Shown here in pieces: positions 54,799-58,377 of a DNA stretch of 64,000 nucleotides. Under the pieces are notes generated by a model that was not told where the DNA came from, ran no database searches, and saw nothing but the letters and a program-made list of their open reading frames with translations. This stretch comes from Methanofollis fontis. GTDB taxonomy: Archaea > Halobacteriota > Methanomicrobia > Methanomicrobiales > Methanofollaceae. Numbering within the stretch: the stretch's first letter is position 1; the number at the start of each line of letters is the position of its first letter. The stretch spans positions 310,001 to 374,000 of the forward strand of contig NZ_PGCL01000001.1 in assembly GCF_004297185.1 (NCBI RefSeq), in the 5' to 3' direction. The translations under genes were made by a program, and so were the position numbers.

Positions 54799-55650
54799 TT
54801 ACGAAGAGTTCTCGCGCACATACACGGGCATACACGCCCGTCCGACGGCATCAGGCAGGTCCCCCACCGCCGTCACCACCGAGGCCGAGTGCTCGAGCAT
54901 CAGGTTCACCAGCTCGTGCGAACCGACCCGGCGGAAATCGGTCCTCAGGGCCACGACCGGTTTTCCGAGCGCATACGCATACCCCATCTCCCATGCCGTC
55001 CCCGAGTCGGCATCGGCGCCGTCGATCACCCCGACGACCACATCCGCCCGCCTGAGGGCGGCGGTGTGCCGATCAAAGAGGGCCCGGCCCCATGCGGGGT
55101 CGCGCACCGCCCCGTCCTCACCGGCCTCCTGCGGCAGATAGACATCGTAATATGAGGCCTCCAGCAGATCCCGCACCTCCCGGTTGAACCCCTGTTCGGC
55201 AGCGGTGAAGAGCGGAGCGGCGCAATAGACACGGTGCCTCGCAAACTCATAGACATCCACCGCCTCGATCTCCGGGAACCGGGCCAGGAAGGCACCCCGA
55301 CCCGGCACCCGGTCATCTCGCCAGGTCCGGTTCACCCCGCAGGTCGGCGAGGAGTCGACGCCCACGATACAGAGCGGCGGGCCGCGTTCTGCGATCAGGG
55401 AGCGCACCTCCGCCTCCATCCGGTCGAGCAGGACGGAGAACGCCGGGGTGTCCAGGCGCTCCGCAAAGGTCGCCGGCGGACGGGGGCGCCCCAGGTAGGC
55501 GGTCTCCGGGCAGGGCAGGGGCACCACCTCGATCGAAAAGCGCCGGCAGCGCTCCAGGGCACCCTCGAAGGCCGTCAGATCGGCCGGACGGGTGATCCCC
55601 TCGGCCCGCAGCGAGGGATCACAGATGCAGGGTGAGCAGAGGATATACAT
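54799..55650 (-). CDS. Fusion of TudS-like (DUF523-type) desulfidase and nucleoside 2-deoxyribosyltransferase
   Basis: A 283-residue two-domain protein. Residues 1-130 carry the Cys pattern and loops of the CD3072/TudS-related group: LCSPCICDPSLRAEG (4-18), PETAYLGRPRPPATF and GVDSSPTCGVNRT with the third Cys. TudS proteins use a [4Fe-4S] cluster to remove sulfur from thiouracil. Residues 145-283 are a nucleoside 2-deoxyribosyltransferase (VYCAAPLFTAAEQGFN, ADVVVGVIDGADADSGTAWEMGYAYALGKPVVALRTD), with Asp and Glu as active residues. Together they suggest salvage or repair of sulfur-modified nucleosides. Divergent from tsr3, with 30 bases between the starts. Confidence 0.75.
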   Translation of the reverse strand: MYILCSPCICDPSLRAEGITRPADLTAFEGALERCRRFSIEVVPLPCPETAYLGRPRPPATFAERLDTPAFSVLLDRMEAEVRSLIAERGPPLCIVGVDSSPTCGVNRTWRDDRVPGRGAFLARFPEIEAVDVYEFARHRVYCAAPLFTAAEQGFNREVRDLLEASYYDVYLPQEAGEDGAVRDPAWGRALFDRHTAALRRADVVVGVIDGADADSGTAWEMGYAYALGKPVVALRTDFRRVGSHELVNLMLEHSASVVTAVGDLPDAVGRACMPVYVRENSS

Positions 55651-55680
55651 TCAATAGGGGTCTGCGCCAAACCGGCATAG

Positions 55681-56178
55681 ATGATACGCCTCTATGCCTT
55701 CAGGGACAACTCCTGCGATCCCCGGAAGTGCACGGTCAAGCGGATGGAGCGCTTCGGGCAGGTGACAGTCACCGACTCCCTGACCCGCATCCCCCGCTCC
55801 TCCCTCATCCTCGACCCGACGGCAGAGCGCGCCCTCTCCAGGACCGACCGCGACACCCCCTCGATCACCGCCCTGGACTGCTCCTGGGAGGTGCTCGAAT
55901 CCGTCGAGGTCCGGCGCTGGCCCCGCCGCCGCGCCCTCCCCTACCTGGTCGCCGCCAATCCGGTGAACTTCGGCCGCCCCCTTCGCCTCACCTCGGTAGA
56001 GGCGTTCGCCGCCGCCCTCTGGATTCTCGGGGAGGAGGATCAGGCGCGGTCTATCCTCTCGAAGTTCAACTGGGGCATCCGCTTCCTGGAACTGAACGCC
56101 GACCCCCTCGCTGAGTATGCCGCCGCCGAGGATTCGGCTGCCGTGGTGGCAATCCAGGCGCTCTACATGGGTGACTGA
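55681..56178 (+). CDS. tsr3: rRNA aminocarboxypropyltransferase Tsr3
   Basis: A 165-residue DUF367 protein: RDNSCDPRKCTVKRMERFG at the start, SITALDCSWE and the strongly conserved RALPYLVAANPVNFGRPLRLTSVEAFAAALWILG. Tsr3 transfers the aminocarboxypropyl group of SAM to the hypermodified base of small-subunit rRNA. Length is normal. It is separated by 24 bases from the convergent glucan phosphorylase gene. Confidence 0.94.
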   Translation: MIRLYAFRDNSCDPRKCTVKRMERFGQVTVTDSLTRIPRSSLILDPTAERALSRTDRDTPSITALDCSWEVLESVEVRRWPRRRALPYLVAANPVNFGRPLRLTSVEAFAAALWILGEEDQARSILSKFNWGIRFLELNADPLAEYAAAEDSAAVVAIQALYMGD

Positions 56179-56202: not shown

Positions 56203-58377
56203 TCATCGTTCCGCACCCGGTAACGGCGCACCCGCACACGAGACCAGCCGCGGATAATAGCGGTGGACATACTCCTTGAGCATCCGCCGAGAACAGAAGC
56301 GGGGTGCATTGCTCTTGATCGACTCCTTCATCGTCCGCACCCATCCATGCGGGACGCCATCCATATCGGTCTGGTAGTAGAGGGGGACGATCTCCTGTTC
56401 GAGAAGATCGTAGATCGCCCCGGCGTCGGTATCCGTGCGGTCCTTGCAGACACACTCGCCGCCGAACGCCCATCCGTTCCGGCCGTTATACCCCTCCACC
56501 CACCATCCGTCCAGGATGGAGAGGTTGATCACGCCGTTGATCGCCGCCTTCATCCCCGAGGTGCCGCTCGCCTCCATCGGCGGCAGCGGGTTGTTCAGCC
56601 AGAGATCAACCCCGTGAACCAGGTACTGGGCCATCTGTTCGCCATAATCCTCCACAAAGGCGATCTTCCCCCCGAACTCCGAGGACTGCGCATAGCGGTA
56701 GATCCGGCGGAGCACATCCTGACCCCCGACATCATCCGGATGGGCCTTGCCGGCGAAGATGATCTGGACCGGGTGCCAGCGGTTGTTCACGATCCGCTTC
56801 AGCCGTTCGAGGTCGTGGAAGATCAGGTCCGCCCGCTTGTAGGTGGAGAAGCGGCGTGCGAAGCCGATGGTCAGCACGCTCGGGTTCAGGAAGACGCCTT
56901 CGGCAACAACGTTCTCGGGCACTTCCTGGTGTTTGGCCCATTTTCGCCGTTTCATCTCCCTGATCCTGTTGATCAGTTTCATCTTCAGCCAGATATGGAG
57001 GTGCCAGAGTTCTCCGTCCGGGATCTCGTCCACCAGCTCCCAGATCACCGGGTTGTCATGCTCCATCTGCCAGTAGGGGCATACGGACCCGATATACCGG
57101 TCGAAGAGGTCCTCCATCCTGGGGTTGAGCCATGTCTGGAGGTGGACGCCGTTGGTGATCGCATCGATCGGCAGCCGGTCCTCGGGAAGCCCGGGCCAGA
57201 GCCCCTTCCACATCCCCCTGGTCACCTCGCCGTGGCGGGCCGAGACGGCATTGTGGTAGGCCGACATCCGCATCGCGAACACGGTCATATTGAAGCCGGC
57301 GTGCGGATCGCCGGGATCGGTCCCGAGACCGAGAAATCGGTCCCGTTCGATCCCGAGGCATTCATAATACCCCCGCAGATAGCGGTCCACCATATCGAAG
57401 GGGAAGATGTCGGTGCCGGCCGGAAGGGGGGTATGGGTGGTGAACACCGAGGTGCCGCGCACCTGCTCCAGGGCGTCCTCGAAGGAGAAACCCTGCTCGA
57501 TCCGTTCCCGCACCCGCTCGATGAGGGCAAAGGCCGGGTGGCCCTCGTTGATGTGCACCCCCGAATAGTGGACGCCCAGGTAGGAGAGCACCTTCCTCCC
57601 GCCGATGCCGAGCACGATCTCCTGGAGGAGGCGCTCCTCGCGGTCGCCCCCGTAGAGGCGGTGGGAGATCCCCCGGTGTTCCGGACGGTTCTCGGCGATA
57701 TCGGTGTCAAGGAGGTAGAGGGGCACCCGTCCGACCTGCACCTTCCAGACGGCAACATGGATGGGGGGTTCGATGAGGGGGACACGCACGACGATCTGCC
57801 GCCCTGACTCCCCCAGGACGCGGGTGATCGGGGCGGCGTCGCGGTCAAGGATCTCCTCGATGTTCATCTGCGAACCGTCCGTGCCGATATGCTGATGGAG
57901 ATACCCGGAGGAGTACATGAATCCAACGGCGACGAGGGGAACGCCGAGGTCGGAACACTCCTTGAGATGGTCGCCGGCAAGAAAGCCGAGCCCGCCCGCA
58001 TAGAAGGGGAGGGAATGATGGAGGCCGTATTCGGCCGAGAAGTAGGCGACAGTCACCGGGCGGCAGGGGGAGTACTCCCCGGTGAACCAGGAGGTCTTCC
58101 TCGCCATATAGTCCTGGTAACGCTCCATGATGATGTCGTAGCGGCGGAGGTATTCCGGGGTGCGTGCCGCCCGTTTCAGGTAATCAACCGGCACCTCCCT
58201 GAGCATCTGCACCGGGTTGTGGCGGCTTTCCTTCCATGCATGGGCATTCAGCTGTTTGAAGAGCACCCGGGCGGCGGGATGCCAGCTCCACCAGAGGTTG
58301 AATGCGATGTCCACGAGGCCCCCGATACGCTCGGGAACATGGTCAAAACGGCTTCGGTCCATCCCGTCTGCGGTCAT
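56203..58377 (-). CDS. glgP: Alpha-glucan phosphorylase
   Basis: A 724-residue GT35 enzyme of the short, archaeal/bacterial type with an N-terminal DUF3417-like region (FNLWWSWHPAARVLFKQLN). It releases glucose 1-phosphate from glycogen or maltodextrin. Landmarks are AVGFMYSSGYLHQHI, INEGHPAFALIERV and the pyridoxal phosphate region with EASGTSGMKAAINGVINLSILDGWW (Lys binds PLP). ATG 58377 fits a leaderless transcript from TTAAATAAT at about 58405-58413; ATG 58362 is possible. It indicates a glycogen store. Confidence 0.95.
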   Translation of the reverse strand: MTADGMDRSRFDHVPERIGGLVDIAFNLWWSWHPAARVLFKQLNAHAWKESRHNPVQMLREVPVDYLKRAARTPEYLRRYDIIMERYQDYMARKTSWFTGEYSPCRPVTVAYFSAEYGLHHSLPFYAGGLGFLAGDHLKECSDLGVPLVAVGFMYSSGYLHQHIGTDGSQMNIEEILDRDAAPITRVLGESGRQIVVRVPLIEPPIHVAVWKVQVGRVPLYLLDTDIAENRPEHRGISHRLYGGDREERLLQEIVLGIGGRKVLSYLGVHYSGVHINEGHPAFALIERVRERIEQGFSFEDALEQVRGTSVFTTHTPLPAGTDIFPFDMVDRYLRGYYECLGIERDRFLGLGTDPGDPHAGFNMTVFAMRMSAYHNAVSARHGEVTRGMWKGLWPGLPEDRLPIDAITNGVHLQTWLNPRMEDLFDRYIGSVCPYWQMEHDNPVIWELVDEIPDGELWHLHIWLKMKLINRIREMKRRKWAKHQEVPENVVAEGVFLNPSVLTIGFARRFSTYKRADLIFHDLERLKRIVNNRWHPVQIIFAGKAHPDDVGGQDVLRRIYRYAQSSEFGGKIAFVEDYGEQMAQYLVHGVDLWLNNPLPPMEASGTSGMKAAINGVINLSILDGWWVEGYNGRNGWAFGGECVCKDRTDTDAGAIYDLLEQEIVPLYYQTDMDGVPHGWVRTMKESIKSNAPRFCSRRMLKEYVHRYYPRLVSCAGAPLPGAER

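Follow-up and report, generated by a model that had tools for sequence, protein, structure and literature searches.

Why should a methanogen carry, in one polypeptide, a desulfidase-like domain and a domain for exchanging the bases of nucleosides, and do the two serve a common route? The question is raised by an ATG-start open reading frame of 283 aa at 54799..55650 on the minus strand of the window (the whole stretch of 64,000 nucleotides of Methanofollis fontis DNA that was analysed; all coordinates are given on it). The single chain that it encodes consists of an N-terminal TudS-like half and a C-terminal nucleoside deoxyribosyltransferase (NDT) half. An earlier note on this DNA had proposed that the fusion frees thiolated bases from nucleosides and removes their sulfur.

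Domain architecture of the fused protein

The NDT half (residues ~138-276; 54823..55239, minus strand) was recognized by Pfam family PF05014, which scored 88.8 bits on residues 141-249 against a cut-off of 28.8. Its closest solved structure is 7o62, the NDT of Desulfotalea psychrophila (Z 16.0, 34% identity), and the genome holds no other PF05014 gene. The TudS-like half (approximately residues 1-127; 55270..55650, minus strand) gave 19.6 bits with PF04463 on residues 4-124, short of the Pfam gathering score of 34.7. Its best-scoring family model, NF045597 (CD3072 family TudS-related), gave 50.6 bits on residues 3-126 against a cut-off of 130, and for this reason we do not file the fused protein as a member of the CD3072 family. 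The profile search that the earlier note had suggested for both domains thus upheld the NDT domain and left the other below threshold; because both TudS scores fall short, this half needed further proof. Two other fused proteins reach the PF04463 cut-off (38.6 bits in G051 and 34.7 bits in G031) in a search of 61 related genomes.

The TudS-like half was modelled alone with AlphaFold2 (pLDDT 96.3, pTM 0.88), as was the whole protein (pLDDT 90.6, pTM 0.86). With VIA-align, the model of the half matched four TudS crystal structures at Z 10.4-10.6 (rmsd 3.6, 132 residues, ~20% identity); TudS ranked first, and the next row reached only Z 5.4. Foldseek alone gave no match at E <= 0.001 for this half, TudS being absent from the best 50, and sequence profiles of the half did not find TudS in the PDB set, although a query with a RudS-type TudS domain of this genome does recover 6z92 there. 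Compared profile to profile with five TudS domains of RudS type from the order (those picked by a pattern among 30 RudS-type loci, as in all RudS comparisons here), the half gave a probability of 88% and an E of 3.1e-6; C8 and the CPE and SPxCG motifs line up. The two-domain fusion claimed by the earlier note is accordingly borne out, by Pfam for the NDT domain, by the model for the TudS fold, and by its recurrence in related genomes, described below.

Active-site residues of the TudS-like half

In TudS the cluster is described as held by Cys10, Cys43 and Cys104, with Glu45, Ser101 and Ser103 assisting (PMC10611767). The alignment comprised 90 full-length fused proteins, taken from the 92 genomes with both halves after omission of G091 and of G020, in which the gene lies in two frames. 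The three cysteines that the earlier note had proposed to check as cluster ligands stand at the TudS ligand positions: C8 (55627..55629), C47 (55510..55512) and C104 (55339..55341; all codons in this and the following section lie on the minus strand) align with Cys10, Cys43 and Cys104, respectively. All three are invariant (90/90) and are, by this alignment, the candidate ligands. Equally invariant are E49 (55504..55506) at Glu45, S101 (55348..55350) at Ser101, P102, and R15 at the position of Arg17, a residue that touches the phosphate in docking of TudS (PMC10611767). A fourth invariant cysteine, C35 (55546..55548; 90/90), is missing from all 14 standalone TudS-like genes that were aligned. 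In 80 named loci and the window, which are partly the same genomes as the 90, C8, C35, C47, E49, S101 and C104, along with Y142, D215, E221 and N249 of the NDT half, occur in 81/81. Neither C35 nor the order-wide extent of the fusion had been foreseen in the earlier note.

Other positions depart from TudS. Tyr18, which in docking stacks on the base and the sugar (PMC10611767), is replaced by A16 (55603..55605), alanine in 90/90; the spacing from the first Cys to the Arg and Gly is identical in TudS and the fused protein, so that Tyr18 and Ala16 align without a gap. The same site is occupied by Val, Leu, Ile or Ala in 30 standalone archaeal relatives, and by Tyr or Trp in the RudS proteins of the order (5/5). 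The site of Ser103 is not conserved as serine (Thr 46, Ala 16, Ser 11, Cys 10 and Val 7 of 90). In view of these two sites, thiouracil and 4-thiouridine, which the earlier note had named as test substrates, are not supported.

The half thus resembles the TudS thiouracil/4-thio-UMP desulfidase (DUF523; 6z92, 6z93, 6z96, 6zw9) in fold, in the three cluster cysteines and in the positions of Glu45, Ser101, Pro102 and Arg17, whereas the alanine at Tyr18, the drifting Ser103 site, the extra Cys35, the appended NDT domain and the PF04463 score below cut-off set it apart. With the CD3072 family it shares its best family model, and standalone archaeal relatives (97-125 bits) have lost Tyr18 as well, but the fused protein lies far below that cut-off and carries both C35 and the NDT fusion. 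The literature found by full-text search reports no function for the CD3072 family. RudS, the tRNA 4-thiouridine desulfidase, likewise has a TudS-type domain fused to a second domain. In RudS that domain is DUF1722, to which the fused protein has no match, its second domain being NDT, and the RudS proteins of the order retain the aromatic residue at the Tyr18 site.

The nucleoside deoxyribosyltransferase half

In CtNDT, D82 and N118 are placed near the 5'-OH and E88 attacks (PMC10913048). The corresponding residues of the fused protein are D215, N249 and E221 (54988..54990, the NDT nucleophile), and all three, together with M251, are invariant in 90/90; the catalytic residues of this half, whose absence from an alignment the earlier note had considered, are therefore in place. 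Y142 (55225..55227; 90/90) occupies the Tyr7 position of NDTs, a site tied to deoxyribose; the archaeal AvNRT has Phe there and accepts ribose (PMC7308715). At the gatekeeper Asp (D62 in CtNDT, D72 in LlNDT) the window has H195 (55066..55068), and the 90 proteins have His 48, Asn 38, Cys 3 and Asp 1. D62 of CtNDT lies against the 2'-OH, and the D62N variant is reported to keep about half of the efficiency (PMC10913048), by which measure an Asp at this site would not be essential. Asn at the same site has been called a ribonucleoside gatekeeper in a trypanosomal enzyme, and mutants of two other NDTs are described as having gained nothing (PMC11647913, PMC12645435). The sugar preference predicted from these residues is ambiguous, Tyr142 suggesting deoxyribose and His/Asn195 suggesting that ribose is tolerated. 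The idea that the fusion alone has a change at the D72 site was also considered and was rejected, since standalone archaeal NDTs vary there too.

The half shares with known NDTs (CtNDT, LlNDT, 7o62) the fold, the nucleophilic Glu, the Asp and Asn for the 5'-OH, the Tyr and the Met, and differs from them in the His/Asn at the gatekeeper Asp and in the attached TudS-like domain. AvNRT, the N-ribosyltransferase of Archaeoglobus veneficus, is like it an archaeal PF05014 enzyme, described as acting on unphosphorylated nucleosides (PMC7308715). D215 and N249 agree with the NDT-type 5'-OH site, but the nucleotide N-glycosidases DNPH1 and MilB, which have a 5'-phosphate binding site in its place, match the fold of this half too (Z 11-13).

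Distribution and history of the fusion

A match was found in 97 of 100 related genomes, 92 of them with both halves and five with the NDT half alone. The fusion is intact in one open frame in 91 and spans six families of the order Methanomicrobiales; with these counts, it is not due to chance. In G020 (L037) the fused gene is split over two frames of 247 and 102 aa, either a real break or a sequencing error. The five NDT-only genomes (G013, G023, G038, G048, G053) all come from one family, and the three genomes with no match belong to that same family and are incomplete (62-77%). In 392 genomes sampled evenly across the phylum, the matches listed include at least 82 in the order (80 with both halves, two NDT only), with G412 as the one listed genome of the order that has no match. 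Outside the order the matches listed from this sample are NDT only; a diverged fusion could be among the matches not listed. Full-length matches among the named records (80 of 162 confirmed loci) include Methanofollis, Methanoculleus, Methanoregula, Methanolinea, Methanocalculus and Methanogenium, and their record titles are genera of the order or less exactly named archaea. Phage and plasmid matches (10 and 4 records) concern the NDT half only, none covering 80% of the query, and viral contigs gave no match to the fused protein.

The TudS-like half was searched for in 65 genomes outside the order and in the five NDT-only genomes inside it. A separate TudS-like match was present in 42 of the 65, in open frames of 139-215 aa, which are too short to hold both halves. 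In the loci examined outside the order, TudS-like and NDT genes were not found as neighbours.

We built a tree from 33 fused, four NDT-only and 12 outside NDT sequences. Many of its inner branches are weak (16/46 open). The outside sequences all fall on one side of a branch with support 98/92, and the NDT-only sequences nest among the fused ones, grouped with two fused proteins from the same family as themselves (98/93). A single fusion in the order followed by a single loss of the TudS-like half would fit this topology. NDT-only genomes as the ancestral state were rejected on account of this nesting.

The same data bear on an explanation in which the halves share no route. The NDT half would be the main enzyme, exchanging or hydrolysing unusual nucleosides, while the TudS-like half would separately desulfurate free thio bases or nucleotides, the fusion serving joint expression and assembly. 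The persistence of NDT-only versions in five of the 100 related genomes and in sister lineages agrees with such a division, as does the lack of linkage between the halves at the loci examined outside the order. So do the residues themselves: R15 stands where TudS has its phosphate-touching Arg, and a 5'-OH site is retained in the NDT half, so that the preferred forms may differ between the halves. The fact that they are kept together in 92 of 100 genomes, after one origin and with one loss, argues the other way, and we consider separate roles possible but somewhat unlikely.

Genomic context

Upstream of the fused gene, a gap of 30 bp (55651..55680) separates it from a divergent tsr3-like gene (DUF367) at 55681..56178 on the plus strand, identified by NF002621 (203.5 bits) and Ribo_biogen_C (142.9 bits). 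The two stand head-to-head in 113 of 114 loci of the order, with start codons mostly 30-38 bp apart (some genomes are in both collections). The NDT-only genes retain this neighbour (5/5); it is not adjacent in the 18 loci outside the order with enough flank. Across families it is the only conserved neighbour, and no operon partner was found. Each promoter may lie on the first codons of the other, divergent gene. Since a gap of ~30 bp may lock two promoters together, we do not count the tsr3-like neighbour as functional evidence. A carbohydrate phosphorylase with DUF3417 lies at 56203-58377 of the window and does not overlap the fused gene.

The separate TudS-like genes of one family (f8) have an NcsA-like tRNA 2-thiolation gene ~1-5 kb away on the same strand in 19 of 20 loci (L243, L249, L252, L261-L265, L267-L272, L274, L276-L279), a count that is not independent because these loci share descent. 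The NcsA-like neighbour occurs in none of seven loci of other families, one of which (L254) ends at a contig end, giving 19/27 overall. Of the NcsA-like proteins, two were scored (286 and 301 bits; cut-off 500), and both pass TIGR00269. Next to the TudS-like gene of L255 and L256, which are from another family, lies a gene of one shared cluster, and the L256 copy of this gene matches PurP (formate-phosphoribosylaminoimidazolecarboxamide ligase) with up to 317 bits.

The genome of the window itself encodes ThiI (275.4 bits) and a TIGR00269 tRNA thiolase (66.3 bits), which together make thiolated tRNA a likely source of thio bases. A second TudS-type protein of this genome, in a longer frame, has a PF04463 match (126.9 bits) above the cut-off (G000:C1:670562-670984; L101). 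This protein is probably RudS, and several genomes with the fusion lack its counterpart. A search of the same genome for UPRTase gave a match confined to profile positions 143-206, within a 69-aa open frame; as the match is partial, nothing is concluded from it on uracil salvage.

Discussion

Our preferred reading, to which we give a probability of roughly 45%, is that the fused protein acts on thiolated nucleosides or their bases as a bifunctional enzyme of salvage or clean-up. The salvage idea of the earlier note is, in this sense, plausible; cluster binding, both activities, a common substrate and the identity of the thio base are what we infer. In the N-terminal half, C8, C47 and C104 would bind a [4Fe-4S] cluster, one iron of which would remain free. 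This iron would take the sulfur of a thiocarbonyl base, with the assistance of E49 and S101, and sulfide would leave, as in TudS. The C-terminal half would act on a nucleoside whose 5'-OH is free and open its N-glycosidic bond: E221, oriented by Y142, would attack C1', and D215, together with N249 of a neighbouring subunit, would hold the 5'-OH. The base would be released, or swapped for another base or water. The net outcome of the two halves would be the conversion of a thio-nucleoside to a plain base and sulfide.

The bifunctional reading is favoured by the prevalence of the fusion, by the modelled folds of both halves and by their invariant active-site residues. The tRNA thiolation genes, in the same genome and near the separate TudS-like genes of one family, also speak for it. 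Against it stand the loss of Tyr18, the variable Ser103 site and the scores of the TudS-like half below the Pfam and NCBIfam cut-offs. The five NDT-only genomes, moreover, manage without that half, and at the loci inspected outside the order the two genes are not adjacent. The sugar counts against it as well, since Tyr142 favours deoxynucleosides and tRNA yields ribonucleosides. A TudS enzyme is reported to protect bacteria against 4-thiouracil (PMC12210855), which makes detoxification as good a name for the role as salvage.

The TudS enzymes studied in PMC10611767 are described as preferring 4-thio-UMP, with 2-thio forms not specifically bound. Given the absent Tyr18 and the NcsA-like genes near the separate TudS-like genes of one family, 2-thio bases deserve a test. 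More speculatively, and with considerable doubt, the fused protein might belong with the stand-alone TudS-like genes of related methanogens to a desulfidase branch for 2-thio bases, namely 2-thiouridine from tRNA or its breakdown products. In the order this branch would have merged with a glycosidase or base-exchange domain of its own, to give a one-chain route from thio-nucleoside to plain base.

The features that weaken the bifunctional reading suit an explanation in which the TudS-like half no longer desulfurates bases. Its cluster would then sense the redox state or sulfide, or act on another thio compound, and the half would regulate or assist the NDT half. The alanine at Tyr18, the variability at Ser103 and the scores below the curated cut-offs are consistent with such a change, and C35 could serve as a fourth ligand. 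What is invariant, however, is the catalytic set (C8, C47, C104, E49, S101, P102 and R15; 90/90), beyond the cysteines alone, and we regard a sensing or assisting role as unlikely. That the fusion is a functionally meaningless accident of neighbouring genes is highly improbable, as nothing beyond the single loss of the TudS-like half was found in its favour, and against it stand the unbroken frame in 91 of 100 related genomes and the invariant active-site residues of both halves.

TudS fusions are known in general, mostly with DUF1722, according to PMC10611767 and PMC11417400. The earlier note knew of no characterised example of the present pair. Our full-text literature search (TudS, DUF523 or 2-thiouracil desulfurase with deoxyribosyltransferase, and CD3072; subscription papers lay outside its scope) likewise found nothing on it. 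The natural His/Asn at the NDT gatekeeper beside Tyr142 is useful for the engineering of NDTs towards ribonucleosides, and the absent base-stacking tyrosine is a concrete reason to look for another thio base. The recycling and breakdown of sulfur-modified RNA bases have hardly been studied, the desulfidases met in the literature being TudS, for free bases to nucleotides, and RudS, for tRNA. On the bifunctional reading, the fused protein would be a further domain architecture, kept order-wide in methanogens, that ties desulfuration to the cleavage of the glycosidic bond, and one protein makes both halves testable.
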